In this document: positions 6,843 through 63,901 of the stretch, piece after piece
How positions within the stretch are numbered: position 1 is the first letter of the stretch
Layout: the number at the start of each line of letters is the position of its first letter
NCBI GenBank assembly: GCA_015178975.1
Contig: WHVD01000184.1
Coordinates: 62,001-126,000 of the forward strand
Source of the DNA: Hysterangium stoloniferum
Lineage: Eukaryota > Basidiomycota > Agaricomycetes > Hysterangiales > Hysterangiaceae
DNA length: 64,000 nucleotides
Reading direction: 5' to 3'
Made by a program: the position numbers and the translations under genes
Notes under the pieces: generated by a model
Told to the model about the DNA's origin: nothing
Databases searched by the model: none
The model's input: only the letters and a program-made list of their open reading frames with translations

Positions 6843-7641
6843 TGTTAAGGGTGCGTACACAGAGGGTTTTCAGAGAAACCCATGGGAAATCTGGTAGGAC
6901 TTGGCTTCAGCTTATAGGCTGTGCCCTCACAAGATCATGTTGTCCAATTTCAAACAGGCAGATGGGAATTCCGGGGAGTCCAGGCGGAGTTTGTGGGTCG
7001 AGAGGTCATGGGTTGAGAGGTCGGGGAGTCGAGATAGATAAGTTGGAGGTTGAGTGATAAATGCATTGGAGCCTGTGGGCTCCAACTAGTGAGAGTGGTG
7101 TAATTCAAAGAGGAGTTTAGAGCAGAAAATGTACTAGATTACTGGGGAGAATCTAAGCTGATTTTCTGACTGGATTGTATATACAACATTTGCCAGACTA
7201 TATAGACTGTGGAATGAAATACCAAATACAGTAATAATGAAAATGAAACTAGCAAACATAAAATGAGATAAGTAAACACCAACCTTGGTGTTAGGAATGG
7301 AATGGAGCAGAGTCCAAATCGTGACAGATCATAAAACCATAACAGGAATGGAGCGGGAGTCTGAATTGTGACAGGTCATTTGACTATAATGGGAACGGGG
7401 CTCAGTTAGAGGGATGACGGGTTTTCCAAGCAGGGTCCAGTGACTGATGCATGGGACAGAGTTGGACATAGACAGAGACAGAGTCTGGCAGGTATTCCGG
7501 TGACTGATAGATGAAGTCAAACGTGGACAAGTCTGACGTACAGAGTCTGGCAGGAATTCTGGTCAACTGACAATTGGTGCATATAGGGTGCAGGTGCATA
7601 TAAGTTATGCCTGGAGTCCAGCGGGAATTCCAGTCGTAACA
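6843..7641 (-). repeat. 3' LTR of composite gypsy (A1)
   Basis: 799 bp, TG to CA; in coding sense it starts TGTTACGACTGGAATTCC at 7641. It is preceded in coding sense by a polypurine tract. It contains about two units of the 15 bp repeat that is expanded in A2 (near 7003-7030). Confidence 0.85.
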
Positions 7642-7644
7642 GTA

Positions 7645-7654
7645 CTCTCCCTTT
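7645..7654 (-). other. Polypurine tract of the gypsy element
   Basis: In coding sense AAAGGGAGAG lies three bases upstream of the 3' LTR. Its position fixes A1 as the 3' LTR and so the extent of the element. Confidence 0.7.
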
Positions 7655-7790
7655 ATGCTGAAGTCCCAAAGAGGCTCTAGACCTTGATAAGGTTTTGTCG
7701 GTTATGTGCATGTGCCAAAAGTCATGTCAATTACACATATGTGTCAAAGAGTCATGTGATCTGGAAGGTAAGGTTCAGACATGATGAGCC

Positions 7791-7798
7791 TATATAAA
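7791..7798 (+). promoter_or_regulatory. TATA box of the gypsy antisense gene
   Basis: TATATAAA lies 54-61 bp upstream of the candidate start codon at 7852. A pyrimidine-rich stretch (TTCTTCTTCTTTTATTACCC) and a good start context (CAACACCATG) lie between. It faces away from the 3' LTR and opposite to gag-pol transcription. Confidence 0.6.
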
Positions 7799-8010
7799 AA
7801 ATTGAAAAAATGAATTTTTCTTCTTCTTTTATTACCCCCATCATCAACACCATGTGTTAGGGTACATACACAGTTTCTGGAGAAACCCACGGAGAATCTG
7901 GTAGGACTTGGCTTCAGCTTATAGGCTGTACCCTCATGAGATCATGTTGTCCAATTTCAAATAGGTGGACAGGAATCCCAGGGAGTCCGGGCAGAGTTCG
8001 TGGGTTGAGA

Positions 8011-8896
8011 GGTTGTGGGTTGAGAGGTTGTGGGTTGAGAGGTTGTGGGTTGAGAGGTTGTGGGTTGAGAGGTTGTGGGTTGAGAGGTTGTGGGTTGAGA
8101 GGTTGTGGGTTGAGAGGTTGTGGGTTGAGAGGTTGTGGGTTGAGAGGTTGTGGGTTGAGAGGTTGTGGGTTGAGAGGTTGTGGGTTGAGAGGTTGTGGGT
8201 TGAGAGGTTGTGGGTTGAGAGGTTGTGGGTTGAGAGGTTGTGGGTTGAGAGGTTGTGGGTTGAGAGGTTGTGGGTTGAGAGGTTGTGGGTTGAGAGGTTG
8301 TGGGTTGAGAGGTTGTGGGTTGAGAGGTTGTGGGTTGAGAGGTTGTGGGTTGAGAGGTTGTGGGTTGAGAGGTTGTGGGTTGAGAGGTTGTGGGTTGAGA
8401 GGTTGTGGGTTGAGAGGTTGTGGGTTGAGAGGTTGTGGGTTGAGAGGTTGTGGGTTGAGAGGTTGTGGGTTGAGAGGTTGTGGGTTGAGAGGTTGTGGGT
8501 TGAGAGGTTGTGGGTTGAGAGGTTGTGGGTTGAGAGGTTGTGGGTTGAGAGGTTGTGGGTTGAGAGGTTGTGGGTTGAGAGGTTGTGGGTTGAGAGGTTG
8601 TGGGTTGAGAGGTTGTGGGTTGAGAGGTTGTGGGTTGAGAGGTTGTGGGTTGAGAGGTTGTGGGTTGAGAGGTTGTGGGTTGAGAGGTTGTGGGTTGAGA
8701 GGTTGTGGGTTGAGAGGTTGTGGGTTGAGAGGTTGTGGGTTGAGAGGTTGTGGGTTGAGAGGTTGTGGGTTGAGAGGTTGTGGGTTGAGAGGTTGTGGGT
8801 TGAGAGGTTGGGGAGTCGAGAGGTTGTGGGTTGAGAGGTTGTGGGTTGAGAGGTTGTGGGTTGAGAGGTTGTGGGTTGAGAGGTTGTGGGTTGAGA
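8011..8896 (+). repeat. 15 bp minisatellite array inside LTR A2
   Basis: There are 53 consecutive identical units of GGTTGTGGGTTGAGA (8011-8805), one 16 bp variant GGTTGGGGAGTCGAGA (8806-8821), then five more perfect units (8822-8896), followed by the variant again. The plus strand of the perfect block has no cytosine for about 800 bp. Because 15 is a multiple of three, most frames stay open, which explains the long meaningless reading frames here. Homologous LTRs have about 2 units (A1) and 6 units (A4, as GGTCATGGGTTGAGA). Confidence 0.97.
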
Positions 8897-9194
8897 GGTT
8901 GGGGAGTCGAGATAAATAAGAAAGATAGATGTGTTGGAGCCATGGGCTCTGACTAGCATGAGTGGTGTAATTCAAGGAGGAGTTTAGAGCAGAAAATGTA
9001 TTAGATTACTGGGGGGGAATCTAAGGCAATTTTCTGACTGGATTGTATGTACAACATCTGCCAGACTACAGTATATAGACCATGGAATGAATAACATACC
9101 AAATCCAGTAATAATGAAATGAAAGTAGCAAAACATGAAATGAGAATAGTAAACACCAAATTTGGTGTTAGGAACAGGACAGAATGGAGTGGAG

Positions 9195-9932
9195 TGTTAA
9201 GAACTGAAAACTGATTAATGTTGGTGGCCGACAGGGACCAATTGGAAGGACTTGGCTTCAGCTTATGTGCTGCGCCCTCACAAATATCCGTAGTGTCCTT
9301 AAATTTCGGATGGGTGAAGACTAATCCTAAAGAGTACCTTTTGGCAAGATCCCGATCGGGACTGAAGGATAAGTTGAGTGTCGGGCCAAGGGGTCGGGAT
9401 TGAGAGTGGGCGAGTGCACGCGAAGGCGGATGAGGGGATCCTTAGTATGAGACTTCTACAGATGTATGAGGGTATTCTGAGTCAATATTCTGATTGCCTA
9501 GTAACTACAACTACAGTGGGTTCATATACAAGTAACAGGCGTCTAGAAAATACTAATGGGGAGAAAGGTGGAAAACGGTATTAACAATAAGCTTGACTAG
9601 GAATGGGAAGTTTATGATTAGTTCGGAGGCTGAAGAGATAACTGAGAGTGGAATTACGGAAAAAGGAAATAGTTCAAGGACTACAAATATACATAGACAT
9701 ATGTGAAACATAGGATAGAACGGATCATGATAATAAAAGGGATGTATCAAAAGTTTAACCAGATAGTACAAGTATATTTTGACATGGGCGTAAACAGAGT
9801 TTGATCATCACGAAAGCATACGTCAGCCTCGGGGGCCAATGGTTTCTGATGTGGTGACTTGAATAGTAACTTGAATCGTCAATAAGTGGCGATAACCTCG
9901 GGGACCGATAGGGTTGCGACACGGTCATAACA
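9195..9932 (-). mobile_element. Solo LTR B2, nested in A2
   Basis: 738 bp from TGTTAAGAACTG to GGTCATAACA, with a perfect TGGAG duplication (9190-9194, 9933-9937). The A2 sequence continues cleanly on the far side. It is an undisturbed reference copy of the B LTR family. Confidence 0.93.
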
Positions 9933-11175
9933 TGGAGTCTGAATCATGACAAATCATAAACCATAATGGGAAATGGAGCGGGAGCGGGGTCCGAATCGTG
10001 ACAGATCATTTGACTAAAACAGGAACGGGGCTCAGTTAGAAGGTTGATGGGTTTTCCAAGTGGGGTCCGGTGACTGATGCCAGGGATGAGGTCGGACATA
10101 GACAGGGATGGAGTCTGGTGGGTATTCTGGTGACTGATACATGACATATGTAATAAAGTCAAATGTGGACAAGTCTGATGTATGGAGTCCAGTGGGCATT
10201 CCGGTAAACTGACAATTGGTGCGTATAGGGTGTGGGTACATATAAGTTAGTGCCTGGAGTCTGGCAGGAATTCTGGTCGTAACACCATGAAACCAAAGCC
10301 AACACTGAGAAGACCAATGCCAACTGCTGGGCCCTCCATGGGCAATCAATATTGGGCACCTCTCACCGCTGCCCAGATCTTGGTGGAGTGAGAGGAACAG
10401 CATCGTCAATGAGAAGAGGCGGAGAGGGAGGCCAAGGAGGCATTAGACAGAGAATACCAGGAAGCATTGGCTGCAGAGAAAGTGGCTGAGGAGCAGAGGA
10501 AGAAGGATGAGGAGGAGGCTGTGTAGGTCACTGTGGAGAAAGCCCAGGCAGCTGGATAGGGCCGCAGTTGCTGCAGGCAAAGTAAGTCCCATAGTTACAA
10601 CTTGTCGATTTTAACTGACTTGGTATTTTCAGCACAAGGCAACAGAGGTTGAGTTGGAGTCCAAGGGGAAACTGGAGAGCCCCCAGAAGGTAAGTCTCAG
10701 GTCCATGGGCATTCTGGGAAGCTAACCACATCAACAGAAGGCAAGGAAAGTGGCACCAGTCTACCTACCAATGAGGAATGAACCACAGTGTTCCGGTTGT
10801 AATGACCAGAACACTGATTGCAATTGAAAGTCTGGGCAGGGACTGGGGTGCTTTCAGTGCATGCACCTCAAAGTGAGGTGCTTGCTCATGCACGAGCAGC
10901 CCACAGGGTCCATGGCACAGGAAACAAGTGGGTCAGATGGGCTTTCAGGTTTGGATGAGGTTTTGGGGTCACTGAGGGCATAGAGGCCCAGAATGAGTTG
11001 CTTAGGAAGAGCAACAAGGTGCAGATAGTGGTGGCTAAGGAACTTTGTGGACTCCATGAGGAATTTTGGAAGTTCCTGGCAGAGTATGGCAGCTATGTGT
11101 ATGAAGAGCCGCAAATTGGGAGTTCTGAGGATGCCAGGTCAGATGAGGATGGGGTTCCCGTGGAGATAGCAGAGC

Positions 11176-12139
11176 TGTTATGACCAGAATTCCCACTGGA
11201 CTCCGGGCACTAACTTATATGCACCCGCACCCTATACGCACCAATTGTCAGTTTACTGGAATACCCACCGGACTCCATATGTCAGACTTGTCTACATTTG
11301 TCTTCGTTACGTTGTGTATCAGTCACTGGAATACCCACCAGACTCCGTATGTCAGACTTGTCTATGTTTGTCTTCATTACGTTGTGTATCAGTCACTGGA
11401 ATACCCACCGGACTCCGTATGTCAGACTTGTCTACGTTTGTCTTCGTTACGTTGTGTAGCAGTCACTGGAATACCCACCGGACTCTGCCCCTGTCTATGT
11501 CTGACCTTGTCCTGCGCGTCAGTCACTGGACCCCGCTTGGAAAACCCATCATCCCTCTAACAGAGCCCCATTCCTGTTTTAGTCAAATGACCTGTCACGA
11601 TTTGGACTCCACTCCCACTCCATTTCCTGTTATGGTTTATGATTTGTCACGATTTGGACTCCGCTCTGTTCCATCCCATTCCTAACACCGAATTTGGTGT
11701 TTACTATTCTTGTTTCATGTTTTGCTAGTTTTGTTTCATTATTACTGGATTTGGTATGACATTCATTCCACAGTCTATATAGTCTGGCAGATGTTGTACA
11801 TACAATCCAGTCAGAAAATTGGCTTAGATTCCCCCCAGTAATCTAATACATTTTCCACTCTAAACTCCTACTTGAATTACACCACTCATGCTAGTCGGAG
11901 CCCATGGGCTCCGGCACATCTATCTCTCTTATCTATCCTGACTCACGACCTCTCGACCCATGACCTCCGACCTCCGACCCCTTGACCCATGAACCCTGCC
12001 TGGACTCCCCGGGATTCCCATCCACCTGTCTGAAATTGGACAACATGATCTCGTGAGGGTGCAGCCTATAAGCTGAAGCCAAGTCCTACTGGATATTCTG
12101 TGGGTTTCTCCGCAAACCCACCGTGTACATACCCTAACA
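11176..12139 (+). mobile_element. Solo LTR A3, near the 3' end of the antisense gene
   Basis: In coding sense it starts TGTTATGACCAGAATTCC and ends CATACCCTAACA. The flanks AGAGC and GGAGC match at four of five bases. It is opposite in orientation to the host element's LTRs. It contains about four copies of a 60 bp repeat (11262-11480) with the core GGAATACCCACCGGACTC. Confidence 0.88.
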
Positions 12140-12264
12140 GGAGCTCCCTGAGGAGATGACTGAGGTGGGGAAAAAACACAGCCCCATAAATGTAGATGAA
12201 TAAAATAATAAAAGTTTAATAATTTTTTGTTGAAAATAAAAGTAAAGTGTGAAAAACATAAAAA

Positions 12265-15200
12265 TCAAAGTCTGCAGAAAATCCACTCAAGGACTTGAAA
12301 ACATGTCAGAACCTGTAAAAGCAAAGAGAGACATAGGGCAACAGGAAATAATGAGAATGAGTCCAGACATAACATGGGGTCCATGGAGTGTGGTAAAAGA
12401 GAAGATAGTGGTCCGGGTTTGAGTGGGTAAGCTGTATGAAAGTCAGTAATGATTTCCATGGCATTACCAAGTTCTGTGGCCAAAATCCATCAAGTTTCTT
12501 CATCAGTGCCCTTGTAACCTGCCCACTTGACCAAGTAAAGCAGTTTACAAGTGCATTGATGCTTGTCAATTTTCAAATCTAAAATTTGTGAGATTTCAAA
12601 CTCAGGTTCTCCGTCAATAATGACTGGAGGAGGTGGAGATTGCATGTGATCTGGGATAGTGTTAGCAGTACCAGGTTCTAACATAGAAACATGAAATACT
12701 GGGTATACTGTGCACATGCTATCTGGAAGCTGTAGGTTGAAAGAAACTGAACCTACTTGTGCGATTATTTCAAATGGACCTAAATATTTTTCAGCAAGCT
12801 TTTTTGATGGATGGGTAGTCCAAAAGAATTGAGCTTTGACAAAAACACAGTTGCCAATCTTGAAGTTGGGTGGCAGAATCCAGTGTTTGTGTGCTGAATA
12901 TTGATATTGCTCTTGGGCAGACTTTATTGCAGTCCAGATTTCCTTGTGGACCTCATAGAGGTCCATGGTGAACTCTTGAGCATGGGCAGAGGTGAGATTT
13001 CATTCTGGATGTACTGTAATATTTGGATTATATCCTTTATTTGCAAAGAACGGGGAAAAACCAGTAGTGGCTGAGGGTGCATTGTTGTAAGCCAATTCTG
13101 CAAGTGGTAATAAGGATTTCCAATTGTCCTGTTGATAATTGCAATATATGTGGAGATATTGTTCCAATGTCTGATTGACACATTCAGTTTGTCCATCGCC
13201 TTCTGGGTGGTGTCCGGACGTGAAATGTAGTTTCATGTCCAAGGATTTCCCAAGGGGATCTAAAGAAGTGAGATATGAACTCTGATCCTTGATCGGAAGT
13301 TACATGGGATGGAACTCCATGCTTGGAAAATATGTGGATAATAAAAGGTTCTGCTAACTGCACAGACGTAATGGTATCATATGTAGGAATGAATATACCT
13401 TGTTTTGAGAATCTGTCAACAACAACTAGAATGGCGGAAAAGCCTTCGGAATCCAGTAGGTGTTCAATGAAATCCATAGAGATGGAATTCCACGGGTGCT
13501 CCGGTACTGGGAGTTGTTTCAAAAGGCCGTATAGCTTGTGTCACTGAGATTTAGAGCATGGACAAGTAGTGCAAGATTTACAATAGTGCTTAATGAATCC
13601 ATGGAGTCTGGGCCAAGTATATTCTCTTCTTATTAATGATAGAGTTTTGTTGAACCTGAAATGTCTGGAGAGTGGATGATCATGTTTGTACTGAAGGATC
13701 CTGAGGCAGAGGCCGTCAGAGTCTGGTACATAGATACGATTGTCAAGTCTCATGAAACCATGCTGATCGAGAGACCACTGGGGTCCACGAGATTGTCAAA
13801 GTGTGCTTTAGTTATCAGGTCTATCAGAATTGCCAATAGAATATATTGATGTAACTTCTCAATATCCATAATGATAATTCCATGGACAATAGGATGGATG
13901 AGGAAAGTTGCACGGACTGATGTGGTAAGCTGCTGATTCGTGAAAATGGGTTTCAGGTTGTGCAGGTTTACCATGGCATAGTCATTGCTCCCCTCTTTAG
14001 GATAGATGTCCCATCATCTAGTTAAAGCATCGGGTTTGCTGCCGAGATGGCTGGGTCAAAAGTGGATAATCATATTGAAAGCAGATAGGTATTCAGACCA
14101 GCAGGCCTGCTGGTGGGTCAAAATTTTTGTAGTAGAAAAGTATTCCAGGTTTTTGTGATCTGTTACAACATCAATCAGAGTTCCCGAGCCTTCCAAATAG
14201 TGTCACCATGTTTTGAGAGCTGAAGAAATTGCCAGGAGTTCCTTATCATGAACATTGTAATTGAGCTCTGCTCTGGTAAAAGTCCGGGATAGAAAGGCCA
14301 CAGGGTGGACTTCTCGGTCAGAGTCCTGGATAGACAGAATGGCTCCAAGTGCATAGTCCAAGGTCTCCGTTTTGACAATGAGCGGGAAGTCTGGTTTCCA
14401 ATGTGACAGGATAGGAGCTGAAGAAGAAGAATTTTTTAAAAGATTGAAAGCTTTTTGACACTTATCATTAAAATTCCACAGAGTATCCTTATGGGTAAGA
14501 TGGGTAAGGGGAACCATGATGTCGGAATATCCACAGATAAACTGTTGGTAAAAATTGGCAAAGCCAAGGAAAGATTGTATGTCTTTGACTTTTTGGGGTT
14601 CTGGCCAATCTTTGATGACTTGTACTTTAGTTTCGTCCATGCAGAGTCTGTCAGGTCCCATTATGAAGCCCAGGTATTCCACAGAGTCCATGTCAAAAGT
14701 ACATTTTTTACCATTCGTGAATAAACCATGTTGTCTGAGTCTCTGGAGAACTTCATGACTTGTTTGTTGTGTTCTGTGGGATTCTCGGAGTAGATAAGAA
14801 TGTCATCCAGGTAAACAATGACACATACATTGAGCATGTCAGAGAAAATGTCATTGATAAAATGCTGAAAAACAGATGGAGCATTGGTGAGTCCAAAGGG
14901 CATCACCAACCACTCAAAGGCCCCATAACGGGTTCTAAAAGTGGTTTTTCATTTGTTGCCTGTGGAGATCCAGACCAAATGATAGGCATGTTTAAAGTCT
15001 ATTTTGGTGTAAATCTGGGCATTCTGTGGAGCATTGAGCAGATCAGATATAAGTGGAAGTGGATACTTATCCTTTTTTGTGACAGCATTGAGTCCTCTGA
15101 AATCAACACATAGTCTAAGGGATCCATCCTTTTTCTTGACAAACAGAACAGGTGCTCCAAAAGGAGACTTAGAGGGTCTGATAAAGCCTATGGACAGATG

Positions 15201-16112
15201 TTCATCCAGGAAATCACAGATTGCAGAAAGTTTCATGGACGAGAGCAGGTAAATATATCGTAGGGGTGGCTGGGCACCTTCTTCAAGGTTGATTTTTAAG
15301 TCATACTCTCTGTGGGGCAGAAGCTGGTCAGCTTTCCACTTACTGAAAACATCTGCGAAGTTATGATATTGCTCCGGGACACCTTCTAGATCGGCAGTTT
15401 GCTCAGATTTGGATACTGGGGCTGAAAAACAGCCAGTTGCTTCATCAATTTTTAAATTGATAGTGAACACCTGGGACCCATCCATTTTTGTAGCCCTAAT
15501 AAAAGCTGCAGCATTAATCAGAGAAATAGACGGAGGTGCTGTGGGTTCCAGGGAAGCCATGGGTGCTGTAGAGATCACAGGAGTCCTCAAGACTGCAGGT
15601 GCCGGGAAGGCCATGGGTGCTGTGGAGGCTGTGTCAGGTACAGTTTCCTCAGCTGCTGTGGGTGTCCAGAAAGTTATACTGTTAGCTACCCAGTCAATCA
15701 ATGGATTGTAGTGGGTAAGCCAGTTATGTCCTAGGACAACTGAGCAACGTGAGTCTAACTGGGTCACATAGAAAGTGACCAACTGAGATGTTCCACATGT
15801 GAAACAGATGGATAAATCACAAGCTTGGGTGACAACTGAATTGCTTGTGCCATCGAAAAGTCAGAGGCCGATGGGATTTATCAGATAAGTTGACAACAGA
15901 TTTTTTTGTGTGAAATTTGTATTTAAAAAACAATGAGTCAAGCCTGAATCTATGAGGGCTGAAAAAACAAATTTCAGAATCATATTAGACATAAGTTTAA
16001 TAAAAAACAAATCAGAATGCAAAAGAGCAGATACATTGAGATGGGTAAACTCTTGAATGCATGGAGAGGCAATGCAACGCCCAACCCATGTGGAGTCCGT
16101 GGGGTTGCTCAC
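12265..16112 (-). pseudogene. Ty3/gypsy pol polyprotein (protease, RT, RNase H, integrase, chromodomain)
   Basis: Domains appear in the usual chromovirus order on the minus strand, in several frames. The protease region has ALIDSGLTHCFLN (DSG active site) near 15950. The reverse transcriptase has DFLDEHLSIGFIRPSKSPFG and LCVDFRGLNAVTKKDKYPLP (14949-15782) and the YLDD box in [14 protein letters not shown] (14661-14909). The connection/RNase H region is at 14203-14691 (FLSRTFTRAELNYNVHDKEL). The HHCC integrase finger is at 13541-13753 (HPLSRHFRF, CKSCTTC), the integrase core at 13000-13522 (SMDFIEHL, SDQGSEF), and the chromodomain at 12490-12966 (LLYLVKWAGYKGTDEET). Frameshifts and stops make it inactive. 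The C-terminus reaches the typical KPGPL end near 12265-12420. Confidence 0.9.
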
Positions 16113-16347
16113 TCTTTTTTCGAGTCAGAAGCTGGTTTGTCCTTCGATGGAGTTTCCATGGAGGTCTTGGCTGTTTGACCCTTTGCAGAGTTTGCTTTTG
16201 CCAGCGGACATTCCAGGACTTGATGACTGGGTTTTCCGCACAAGAGACAGAGTTTATTGTCCATACGATGTTGCCTTTCTTGTGGGGTCAATTTGCCATC
16301 GGGTCCAAGCTTGCCTGTGAGGTCGGGTTTTCCGGTTTGCTTGCCAG

Positions 16348-17825
16348 TGTGAGAGGTACAGCAAAATATACTCTGGAAATATAGTCTGGACGAGCTCATA
16401 CTATATTTCCATTATTTTTTCTATTTTTTCTCTATTTTATTATATGCATATAATTAGTTCGACTGTTAGGGTACGTACACAGCGGGTCTCTGGAGAAACC
16501 CGCGGAATATCCAGTAGGACTTGGCTTCAGCTTATAGGCTGTGCCCTCGCTAGATTGTGTTGTCCAATTTCAGACAGGCGGATGGGAATCCCAGGGAGTT
16601 TGGGCAGGGGTCGTGGGTCGGGGGGTTGTAGGTCAGAGGTCATGGGTCGTGAGGTCGTGAGTCGAGACATTAGTCGAGATAGGTGAGAGAGATAGATGTG
16701 CCAGAGCCTGTGGGCTCCGACTAGTGTGAGCGGTGTGATTCAAGTAGGAGTTTAGAGTGGAAAATGTATTAGATTACTGGGGGGAATCTAAGCTAATTTT
16801 CTGACTGGATTGTATGTACAACATCTGCCAGTTTAAATAGACCATGGAGTGAATGTCATACCAAATCCAGTAATGATGAAATGAAATGAGAAAAACATAA
16901 AACAGGAATAGTAAACACCAAGTTTGGTGTTAGGAATGGGATGGAACGGAGCAGAGTCCGAATAGTGACAAATCATAAACCATCATGGGAAATGGAGAAG
17001 GAGTGGAGTCCGAATCGTGACAGGTCATTTGACTAAAATGGGAATGGGGCTCTGTTAGAGGGATGATGGGTTTTCTGAGCAGGGTCTGGTGACTTATGTG
17101 CAGGATGAGGTCAGATATAGACAGAGATGGAGTCCAGTGGGTTTTCCGGTGACTGAAACACAACGTAATATAAGTCGAACATAGACAAGTCTGACGTACA
17201 GAGTCCGGTGGGAATTCCGGTAAACTGATAATGGGTGCATATAGGGTGTGGGTGCGTATAAGTTAGTGCCCCAAGTCTGGTGGGATTTCTGGTCATAACA
17301 TCGACGACCTATGCATTCAGTACATTGACTCTTGTGGGTGCATACATGTCAGACTTATGTATTCTAGTGCCGGTAGTTAGAACTCAGACACTTTTTACCC
17401 CGCAACCACGACTTACCCAGACACCCAGTTAGTGTCCTGTAAGTTGTGATTGGGGTATCATCTCGACCGTCACAGATGGGCTTTAACTACTAGTGCAATC
17501 AGAGCTTCAAACTATACTAGTTGAAACTCAAACCATTATCTCAATCCGCACGGTCTACATCCGCACTACTCTGTTATTTGACTCTCTCGTTATTCTCTTC
17601 AACACTCAAGCAGTCATTCAGAAACATACTTTACAGTCAATTCTCCTTTATTCGTTTTAGCTCTCTATTCTAATTTAGATAGCTAATTCACTTGACTGTA
17701 TTGAACTAAACAGTGAATACATGTTTGGTCTGTATTAGACTTAAATAGTCAATACATTGTCGTGTTGTACCTAAATGGTTGATATTCTTCATATATAGAA
17801 TGGTTAGAACTTCCACCACTCTTCA
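16348..17825 (+). mobile_element. Solo LTR D inside gag (contains A5)
   Basis: It starts TGTGAGAGGTACAGC. Its 3' half aligns to the 5825-6293 LTR (TACTTGTGGGTG/CTCTTGTGGGTG, CACTTTTTACCC, TTCATATATAGA) and it ends ACCACTCTTCA by that alignment. No 5 bp duplication is visible (GCCAG versus AAGCT), so the edges are approximate or insertion came with a small deletion. Without A5 it is about 640 bp. Confidence 0.65.
16464..17300 (-). mobile_element. Solo LTR A5, nested in LTR D
   Basis: 837 bp from TGTTAGGGTACGTACACAG to GGTCATAACA with a perfect TCGAC duplication (16459-16463, 17301-17305). Confidence 0.93.
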
Positions 17826-18515
17826 AAGCTGGACTGTTGACCTTTGTTGTTGTTGTTGTTAGAAGACTTTTTATCATTCTTCTTGTCAGATTGTGTGGAG
17901 TTCTGGTTGCTGGTTGATGAATTGTTGTTGTTGTTTTTATTGGCTGTGGACTTGTTTACTTTGTCCACGGAGGTCTCACAGGCAACTTCTGTGAGACATT
18001 CCCAATAGCATGCGTCTGTGTTTTGAGCTTTAAGGTGGATACGGGACAGGGCTTTTGGCTTTCCATCTTCTCCTTTTGAGACTTCGTCTTTAAGGTGGGA
18101 TGACAGACTGGCATAGAATTGGTGGCAGAGAGCGGGATCACCCCACTGACAACGAGCTGCAAGATTATTCAATTGGATAATATAGTCCATGATGCGCTGC
18201 ATGTGAAGATTAATGAGACTGTTCTCAGCTTCTCCAGTCAGGTCATATGGGCCAAAGTTGGTTTCACGCTCCTCAACAAAAGCATCCCAATCTTTGAGCC
18301 AAAGCAGCTCTTCCTCAGAAAGTCCACTAAAAGCCAGTTCAAACCATTTCAATGCAGATCCCGACAAGTATGAAAGTGCATAGTTGACTTTTCAGGAGTC
18401 CATGGAGAATGCAGTGGATCAATCATAGAAATTGAAGTGACATTGCATGAGGAAGGTGGAAAGTTTGTTTGGGTTGGAACCCATGAAGGGTTCCAGAGTG
18501 TTGACTTTTGACTGC

Positions 18516-19078
18516 TGTTAAGTGCCGTGTCGGGAACTTATTCCGGAACTATCGGGAAGTCACCGGGAAGTCGGAAACTCATAGATAGGGTCAGGACGTC
18601 GGCTTCAGCTTATGTGCTGCGCCTCTACGCAAACGCTCAATGTCCTTAATTTCGGAAGTGAACTAACGACGGAAGATATGGATATTCAGAGTTCCGAAGA
18701 GTTCTGAATATCGAGCGTACAGAAAGACGGGAGGAGGAATAAGAAACTAAGTCGATATCAGATCTAAAGTAAAGTACAAATTCGCGGAAACTAATATAAG
18801 TCTACTCGTTATTGTACTACAAACTGAGACCATAATAAGATGGAAATGGAAGTGTTCTTAAAACGGAAATACAATAAGACATATTAGGAAGACAATATTC
18901 CGAGACGGGAATACAACAACAAACGAGTGAATACTTGTCAACAGACAAATTACCAAATGCGGAACAAACGAAGAATGCGGATGATACGGTAACTATGATG
19001 TTCCGTAGTCGGATACCGGATATTGAAAGTGGGAGATCGGAAGTCAGATATTGAAACATCCGGGAACGGGTCGTAACA
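18516..19078 (-). mobile_element. Solo LTR, family C, inside gag
   Basis: 563 bp from TGTTAAGTGCCGTGTCGGG to GGGTCGTAACA with a perfect ACTGC duplication (18511-18515, 19079-19083). It shares only the ends and the CAGCTTATGTGCTG hairpin region with families A and B. It has many CpG dinucleotides and little decay, so it is probably young. Confidence 0.92.
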
Positions 19079-19446
19079 ACTGCGGAGGTTCCAGATCCTT
19101 CTTTTTGCCTTCTCCGAGCATATGATTCATCAACCTTTCTAAAGTGACTGCTAAATACTCAGAGGCAGGATCCAAAAGCGGCAGTCCATTGTTAGATGAA
19201 GGATTTTTGACACCCTTGCCCTTGTCGGGGGCCACAGACTTGTCCTCATGCTCAGATTCATCCTGGTTTTCCAGGACTTCTTCGATATGGGCTTCTTTCA
19301 TGGCTTCTGGCTGGTTTGTGAGTGTCTGGCTGGTATACAAAGTTAATGGGGAATGAAGAGTCGATGGTCCAGGTAATGATGCCTGTGCGTGCACTTTGCT
19401 TCTTGGTGGCATATTGAACAATCTGTGAGTCTTAGTCAGAAAATAC

Positions 19447-20387
19447 TGTTAAGGGTGCGTACATGGAGGGCTTCTGGAGAAACCTGCAGGAAATCCGGTA
19501 GGACTTGGCCTCAGCTTATAGGCTGTGCCCTCATGAGATCGTGTTGTCCAATTTCAAATGGGCAGATGGGAATCCCGGGGAGTCCGGGCAGAGTTCGTGG
19601 GTTGAGAGGTCATGGGTTGAGAGGTCATGGGTTGAGAGGTCATGGGTTGAGAGGTCATGGGTTGAGAGGTCATGGGTTGAGAGGTCATGGGTTGAGAGGT
19701 CAGGGAGTTGAGATAGATAAGTCAGAGGTTGAGTGATAGATGTGTTGGAGCCTGTGGGCTCTGACTAGTGAGAGTGGTGTATTTCAAAGAGGAGTTTAGA
19801 GCAGAAAATGTACTAGATTACTGGGGAGAATCTAAGCTGATTTTCTGACCAGATTGTATGTACAACATTTGCCAGACTATATAGACTGTGGAATGAATAA
19901 CATACCAAATCCAGTAATAATGAAAATGAAACTAGCAAACATAAAATGAGATAAGTAAACACCAAACTTGGTGTTCAGAACAGGATGGAACAGAGTAGAG
20001 TCCAAATCGTGACAGGTCATAAAACCATAATGGGAATGGAGCAGGAGTGGAGTCCGAATCATGACAGGTCATAAAACCATAACAGGAATGGAGCAGGAGT
20101 GGAGTCCAAATCGTGACAGGTCATTTGACTATAACGGAAATGGGGCTCAGTTAGAGGGATGATGGGTTTTCTGAGTGGGGTCCAGTGACTGATGCATGGG
20201 ACAGAGTTGGACATAGACAGAGATGGAGTCTGGTGGGCATTCCAGTGACTGATACACAAAGTCAAATGTGGACAAGTCTGACATATGGAGTCTGGCAGGA
20301 ATTCTGGTAAACTGACAATTGGTGCATATAGGGTGTGGGTGCATATAAGTTAATGCCCAGAGTCCAGCAGGAATTCTGGTCGTAACA
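19447..20387 (-). repeat. 5' LTR of composite gypsy (A4)
   Basis: 941 bp, TGTTAAGGGTGCGTAC to GGTCGTAACA in plus sense; transcription of gag-pol would start here and run leftward. It contains six units of GGTCATGGGTTGAGA (19608-19697). The segment near 19980-20110 is internally duplicated (GACAGGTCATAAAACCATAA occurs twice). Confidence 0.87.
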
Positions 20388-63079: not shown

Positions 63080-63901
63080 TGTTAGGATACGTACAGGGTG
63101 GGTTTCCGGAGAAACCCGCGGGATATCCGGTAGGACTTGGCTTCAGCTTATAGGCTGCACCCTCGCTAGATCATTTTGTCCAATTTCAGACAGGTGGTCA
63201 GGAATCCTGGGGAGTCCAGGCGGAGGTCATGGGTCAAGGGGTCGTAGGTTGGAGGTTGGAGGTCATGGGTTGTGAGTCGAGATTTGGTGAGAGAGATAGA
63301 TGTGCTGGAGCCTGTGGGCTCCGACTAGTGTGAGTGGTGTAATTCAAGTAGGAGTTTAGAGCAGAAAATGTATTAGATTACTGGGGGGAATCTAAGCTGA
63401 TTTTCTGACTGGATTGTATGTACAACATCTGCCAGTTTAAATAGACCGTGGATGAATGTCATACCAAATCCAGTAATGATGAAATGAAATGAGCAAAACA
63501 TAAAACGGGAATAGTAAACACCAAATTGGTGTTAGGAATGGGACAGAATGGAGTGGAGTCCGAATAGTGACAAATCATAAACCATAATGGGAAACGGAGT
63601 GGGAGCGGAGTCCCAATCATGACAGGTCATTTGACTAAAATGGGAATGGGGCTCTGTTAGAGAGGTGATGGGTTTTCTGAGCGGGGTCTGGTGACTGACG
63701 TGTGGGATGAGGTCGGAAATAGACAGAGATGGAGTCCGGTGAGTATTCCGGTGACTGAAACACAATGTAACGAAGATGAATGTAGACGAGTCTGATGTAT
63801 GGAGTCCGGTGGGAATTCCGGTAAACTGATAATGGGTGCATATAGGGTGTGGGTGCATATAAGTTAGTGCCCGGAGTCCGGCAGGATTTCCGGTTGTAAC
63901 A
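63080..63901 (-). mobile_element. Solo LTR A6
   Basis: 822 bp from TGTTAGGATACGTACAGG to CCGGTTGTAACA with a perfect CATAT duplication (63075-63079, 63902-63906). It is inserted into the copia relic. It keeps many CpGs and no repeat expansion. Confidence 0.93.

Follow-up and report, generated by a model that had tools for sequence, protein, structure and literature searches.

In the basidiomycete Hysterangium stoloniferum, a 64,000-nucleotide stretch of contig WHVD01000184.1 (positions 62,001 to 126,000, forward strand; the whole stretch is called the window below) carries a Ty3/Gypsy long terminal repeat (LTR) retrotransposon on its minus strand and, between the polypurine tract and the pol end of that element, an intron-containing gene on the plus strand, opposite to gag-pol. 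This antisense gene is a standing part of the element family, present in most copies, and it is almost certainly a real gene of the element that has been kept under selection. A sequence-only reading of the window had already proposed a TATA box, a CT-rich leader, two GTAAGT...CAG introns and the cysteine pattern CX2CX6CX9CX2CX6C on this strand, and each of these was recovered at the position proposed; its placement of the gene antisense inside a gypsy element was also borne out, Pfam matches putting pol on the minus strand and the gene lying between the polypurine tract and the pol end.

Linkage, selection and splicing across the family

The genome searched comprised 111 Mb in 554 contigs; its ordinary Zn_clus genes and its introns of some 50 nt fit a fungal and probably a basidiomycete host. 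A DNA search for the gene gave 799 first-look candidates, of which the best 40 were scored, and two protein searches turned up 1301 and 1341, the best 150 being scored in each. The antisense gene accompanies 90 of the 100 top-scoring pol ends, at a gap of 205-221 bp (median 214); five of the ten without a listed gene were fetched, and all five hold it whole or in part. Of the 100 top-scoring gene places, in turn, 84 can be paired with one of the 150 pol ends listed. At the 59 loci L010-L068, a pol end lies within the 1.5-kb flank in opposite orientation in 55 cases and in the same orientation in none, the remaining four having no pol match; six of these loci are repeats, and when distinct places are counted 50 of 53 have an opposite-orientation pol 3' end in that flank. 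The sequence-only reading had named two findings that would separate the gene from the element, namely other family members lacking it and the gene standing free at many host loci. The first is contradicted by the 90 pol ends and by the five checked among the other ten. As to the second, no free-standing host copy turned up among the best 40-150 places scored per search, and the wider genome could still hold one.

The copies compared amount to 71 distinct sequences out of 79 loci (73 places). Of these, 26 can be read from the ATG, across the two introns, as far as the common end, giving 290-304 amino acids, and three of the other 45 were unplaceable. Among the 26 there are many young copies that are almost identical to one another, and the copies examined are the best-scoring of larger candidate lists, so that the share of intact ones does not hold for the family at large; an open frame is nevertheless kept in many copies, the loss of which from every copy was the third finding that the sequence-only reading had set against itself. 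Of the best 150 gene places, 19 match the query exactly, and exon 3 is free of stops in 110 (both counts by eye). Among the best 150 pol matches, 17 are contained in an open frame whose length is exactly 1304 amino acids (by eye), and young elements with long open pol frames therefore exist.

Pairwise ratios of non-synonymous to synonymous substitution rates (dN/dS, NG86) in the gene have a median of 0.17 (range 0.10-0.37; 248 pairs more than 2% apart), below one as the sequence-only reading had expected of a gene under constraint. For pol at the same loci the value is 0.15 (0.05-0.31; 31 pairs among 16 intact of 40), so the antisense gene is conserved about as well as pol. Non-synonymous and synonymous changes (N/S) outside CpG context, counted by parsimony on a tree of 64 copies, number 327/526 (0.62) on inner branches versus 707/669 (1.06) on tips (Fisher p=2e-9), and in the two wrong frames the ratio is 3.3-5.4. 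Stops occur on inner branches as well (28, versus 83 on tips, in all contexts), which means that some inner branches join dead copies.

The splicing signals are kept as well. All four splice-site dinucleotides are present in 67 of 70 well-covered copies, GT..AG being retained in 68/71 copies for intron 1 and in 71/71 for intron 2, and a branch-site-like CT[AG]A[CT] is found in 63/71 and 70/71, respectively. Divergence outside CpG-prone sites is 0.20, 0.11 and 0.18 in exons 1, 2 and 3, 0.28 in the 3' region and 0.28-0.36 in the introns; the leader, at 0.11, is the lowest of the non-coding regions and about equal to exon 2. Leaders of related copies have TATA[AT]A in 64 of 66 cases and TTCTTCTT in all 66. 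The persistence of the introns in the copies agrees with the earlier argument that introns on the antisense strand escape splicing of the genomic RNA. Taken together, the aligned copies indicate that purifying selection acts on the antisense gene as a spliced protein-coding gene.

Two further observations concern individual copies. Nine or more of the 19 identical young copies are situated 6 kb or less from the end of a contig (by eye), a pattern that an assembly broken at long identical elements would produce. Locus L055 has an insertion of about 440 bases inside exon 1, with a tRNA-like stretch (by eye) and repeated terminal sequence at its flanks; it is perhaps a small tRNA-bearing mobile element.

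The element and its gene copy in the window

The window element is a decayed Ty3/Gypsy LTR retrotransposon, chromovirus-like (Table 1). Its two LTRs are bounded by a 5-bp target duplication with one mismatch. Pieces of pol pass the Pfam cut-offs for RVT_1 (6.6e-7), RT_RNaseH, RT_RNaseH_2 (5.2e-26) and Tf2-1 SH3 (1.8e-18), and the order reverse transcriptase (RT), RNase H, integrase end on the minus strand matches the Ty3/Gypsy layout. In this decayed copy Chromo reaches 19.3 bits versus a cut-off of 25.1, and three of the six element pieces given to Pfam, the integrase piece (13000-13242) and two gag pieces, have no family there. The LTRs differ at 78 of 799 aligned bases, and 62 of these 78 mismatches are of CpG type, which suggests methylation-like decay, or decay resembling repeat-induced point mutation (RIP), in this genome.

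The window copy of the antisense gene is a dead fossil. Along exon 1, three in-frame stops are followed by a frameshift and a fourth stop; a frameshift and a single in-frame stop disrupt exon 3, and two LTR insertions are nested in the gene. The structure described in the sequence-only reading is indeed readable, but the two inserted LTRs, the stops and the frameshifts have to be added to it as corrections.

Table 1. Features of the element and of its antisense gene (window coordinates)
Feature	Position	Strand	Remarks
3' LTR of host element	6843..7641	-	TGTTAAGG...TCGTAACA on plus strand; 90.2% identity to 5' LTR over 799 aligned bases
Polypurine tract adjoining 3' LTR	7642..7654	-	direct sequence reading
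TATA box and CT-rich leader, ending at split start site	7790..7854	+	TATATAA at 7792-7798
LTR piece from the element's own family, inserted in the orientation of its LTRs	7855..10284	-	flanks CCATG/CCATG; parts leader from start codon
Exon 1 (charged, coiled-coil-like by eye), ATG at 10287	10287..10581	+	broken in window copy
Intron 1, 51 nt, GTAAGT...CAG	10582..10632	+	
Exon 2	10633..10689	+	
Intron 2, 48 nt, GTAAGT...CAG	10690..10737	+	
Exon 3, first part: basic stretch resembling a nuclear localisation signal (NLS) and six-cysteine cluster (about 10789-10881)	10738..11175	+	broken in window copy
Inserted LTR of the element's own family, orientation opposite to its LTRs, splitting exon 3	11176..12139	+	flanks AGAGC/GGAGC; 80% match to 3' LTR
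Exon 3, last part, end ...SPINVDE, stop 12201-12203	12140..12203	+	intact copies end alike or similarly
pol, broken into several frames (RT, RNase H, Tf2-1 SH3, weak chromodomain)	12490..15782	-	Pfam
gag region, interrupted by inserted LTRs	16109..19421	-	pieces 16109-16399 (CCHC-like knuckle, by eye) and 17804-19421
5' LTR of host element	19447..20387	-	flanks ACATT/GCATT with 3' end

The window holds further LTR material. Two more solo-like LTRs of the element's own family lie at 16464-17300, nested between the gag pieces, and at 63080-63901. LTR-like pieces at 18516-19078 (inside gag) and 9195-9932 (inside the inserted LTR), with the ends TGTTAAG...CGTAACA or CATAACA set by eye and then checked, seem to belong to another family. 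At 8007-8892 a 15-bp minisatellite with 58 exact unit copies has expanded inside the inserted LTR piece 7855-10284, and related units occur in the 5' LTR.

The predicted protein, the LTR motifs and the possible role of the gene

The predicted product has about 294 amino acids and consists of a charged, alanine-rich N-terminal helix, a basic stretch, a six-cysteine cluster, a helical-looking C-terminal half and an acidic tail that ends in SPINVD or a near variant (helices and coiled coil by eye). The six cysteines, in the pattern C-X2-C-X6-C-X9-C-X2-C-X6-C, are kept in all 26 intact copies, and each one in 61-63 of the 63-64 copies counted; the basic, NLS-like stretch directly precedes the cluster in 26/26 (loose pattern). 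The product is probably a nuclear, zinc-binding protein.

Whether the cluster is of Gal4 type, as the sequence-only reading had it, depends on what is asked of it. The spacing of PF00172, C-X2-C-X6-C-X5-12-C-X2-C-X6-8-C, is found in 26/26 intact copies, and this part of the claim stands. Zn_clus is also the sole relevant Pfam match of the protein, but its scores are 6.9, 8.1, 13.9 and 8 bits, with 15.3 for a short fragment one residue off, all below the 21-bit cut-off, and the whole PROSITE-type signature, with basic residues in the first half, occurs in 0/26. A PDB search returned five weak matches, the best being Talin-1 (E 0.046), none of them a zinc-cluster protein. As judged from these comparisons, 'Gal4-type' denotes a resemblance and not family membership. 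The two halves of the cluster are possibly swapped relative to Gal4: in the best Pfam stretch the first cysteine half is aligned to the second half of the Zn_clus model, and the first-half part of the PROSITE-type signature (basic residues) is found in 23/26 copies, by inspection at cysteines 4-6. The two halves given to Pfam in isolation had no match. With a small profile made from six yeast cluster sequences, both alignments were obtained in five of the six copies tried, at 4.6-5.6 bits in normal order and 3.9-6.6 bits with the first half on the second, while the sixth copy, L020, scored 1.0 bit; a swapped cluster is not proven, because in those five copies the same profile also places the six cysteines in their normal order.

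A lead as to what such a protein might bind comes from one young LTR, whose CGG-rich repeats are a candidate DNA target. The young LTR of L059 (808 bases) has 56 CGG/CCG against 40.8 in dinucleotide shuffles (0/500 reach this), and CGG-N3-CCG, one of 75 arrangements tested, occurs five times against 0.44 (0/500). Direct CGG pairs spaced 4, 8 and 15 are over-represented as well (six each against about one; 0/500). Since several spacings are over-represented among 75 arrangements in one internally repetitive LTR, no single site stands out. In 11 LTR ends found (12 were sought), GGAGTCC is present in ten and CGG-N3-CCG in six. Neither the 300-bp LTR ends of L069 and L073 nor the LTRs of L020, L022 and L032 have the latter; the ends without it are more diverged or decayed, and four of these five have GGAGTCC.

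That the gene has been kept intact suggests that the elements make their own regulator. In the reading we prefer, for which the arguments on the two sides seem to us evenly balanced, the antisense gene is an accessory gene whose product is a nuclear regulator acting on the element's own LTR. Its own TATA/CT-rich promoter would drive antisense transcription, the two introns of about 50 nt would be spliced out, and the resulting protein would enter the nucleus, bind zinc and DNA, and act on the LTR, or on host chromatin there, tuning gag-pol transcription as the antisense nuclear factors of human T-cell leukaemia viruses (HTLV) do. A more specific version, which we hold to be doubtful, would make this a strategy like that of the HTLV-1 protein HBZ but independent of HTLV: a spliced antisense gene encoding a swapped-half zinc-cluster factor that recognises CGG repeats of the LTR, for example CGG-N3-CCG, and forms a self-contained switch. 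With its introns on the opposite strand, such a switch would survive retrotransposition. Several of the observations above weigh against the regulator reading as a whole, namely the subthreshold Zn_clus scores, the lack of a zinc-cluster protein among the PDB matches, the over-representation of other CGG spacings, the LTRs from which CGG-N3-CCG is absent and the stops on inner branches. To these may be added that expression and splicing of the gene are themselves inferred, from sequence, and that the protein may instead have a structural or chaperone role.

Other explanations have to be considered beside this one. The protein could be selected for a nuclear function that does not involve transcription control, such as import of the pre-integration complex, integration targeting or shielding of the cDNA, its cluster binding nucleic acid or protein non-specifically. 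The selection and linkage data are equally compatible with such a helper, the basic stretch just before the cluster in 26/26 copies would suit it, and so would the weak profile match to transcription-factor clusters; a separate antisense promoter and introns would however be odd for a protein needed in the gag-pol particle, and the LTR repeats hint at a DNA target. We consider this explanation somewhat unlikely. Less likely again is a protein that counters host silencing by methylation or heterochromatin and does not act on the LTR promoter. From the heavy CpG-type decay of the window element (62 of its 78 LTR mismatches) it is evident that such elements are mutated or methylated by the host, and young copies stay intact, but neither the Pfam nor the PDB search brought up a known anti-silencing factor.

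The antisense RNA might matter in place of the protein, through double-stranded RNA or interference with gag-pol transcription; this has been reviewed as possible for plant antisense open reading frames (ORFs) (PMC7264820), and the gene here does converge on the pol end. Neither a dN/dS near 0.17 nor the invariant cysteines and the conserved splice sites would be expected on such terms, which makes it very improbable. Finally, a host Zn2Cys6 gene might have been hit by, or carried along with, one insertion. Ordinary Zn_clus genes do exist in the genome (61 of 76 matches are over the cut-off on their own score, by eye), but the gap of 205-221 bp is constant in 90/100 elements and no listed Zn_clus match falls at a listed gene place (by eye), which leaves this explanation with hardly any probability. 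A chance open frame, a chance host-gene insertion and an RNA-only function were accordingly set aside on the linkage and codon evidence.

Comparison with known antisense genes

Accessory genes that run antisense between pol and the 3' LTR have already been described in plants and in the fungal element Boty (PMC7264820, PMC8365987 and PMC11963269), and the 'undescribed system' of the sequence-only reading was too strong a term; the intron-containing six-cysteine version is a variant of a known arrangement. In literature searches that covered few subscription journals, none of the papers listed dealt, by its title or the opening of its abstract, with an antisense zinc-cluster gene of a Gypsy element, and one could exist in print; the word 'antisense' has no occurrence in the main text of a survey of fungal LTR elements (PMC3248453).

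The closest parallels by position are the aORF-3R genes of plant Ty3/Gypsy elements, such as gene23 of maize Grande and those of rice RIRE2 and Silene Retand, some of whose products are nuclear (PMC7264820). The Grande product is nuclear and its gene has its own promoter (PMC7264820), and in Retand antisense ORFs with TRP28 are present in 97% of clusters, with predicted DNA binding (PMC11963269); 'intron' does not occur as a word in the Retand paper. The plant genes and ours are both antisense between pol and the 3' LTR, but here the host is a fungus and the gene has two conserved introns and a six-cysteine cluster, whereas TRP28/SMC is found there, a comparison made by description only. In Boty of Botrytis cinerea, the gene brtn is antisense between pol and the 3' LTR (Zhao et al. 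2011, as cited in PMC7264820 and PMC8365987); this too is an extra antisense gene at the same place in a fungal Gypsy element, the likeness drawn here being one of position. With the Zn(2)-Cys(6) binuclear cluster factors (PF00172, Gal4 type) our protein has the cysteine spacing in common, while its profile score is below the cut-off and, in the best Pfam stretch, its first cysteine half pairs with the second half of the model.

HBZ of HTLV-1 and APH-2 of HTLV-2 are nuclear, stem from antisense transcripts (that of APH-2 being called spliced) and repress Tax-driven LTR transcription (PMC3185765), and their genes, like ours, are antisense in the 3' part of a retroelement. HBZ is however a basic leucine zipper (bZIP) protein with transcripts starting in the 3' LTR and a known action, whereas the gene described here would have a separate internal promoter and an action deduced from its features. 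What antisense accessory genes do is an open question in the plant literature (PMC7264820, PMC11963269), and it becomes testable in the present family, with its conserved introns, its compact cysteine cluster and its many intact copies that hardly differ from one another. If the product does prove to be a regulator of its own LTR, antisense self-regulation would have independent origins in retroviruses and in this lineage, and plant Gypsy elements might be a further case.

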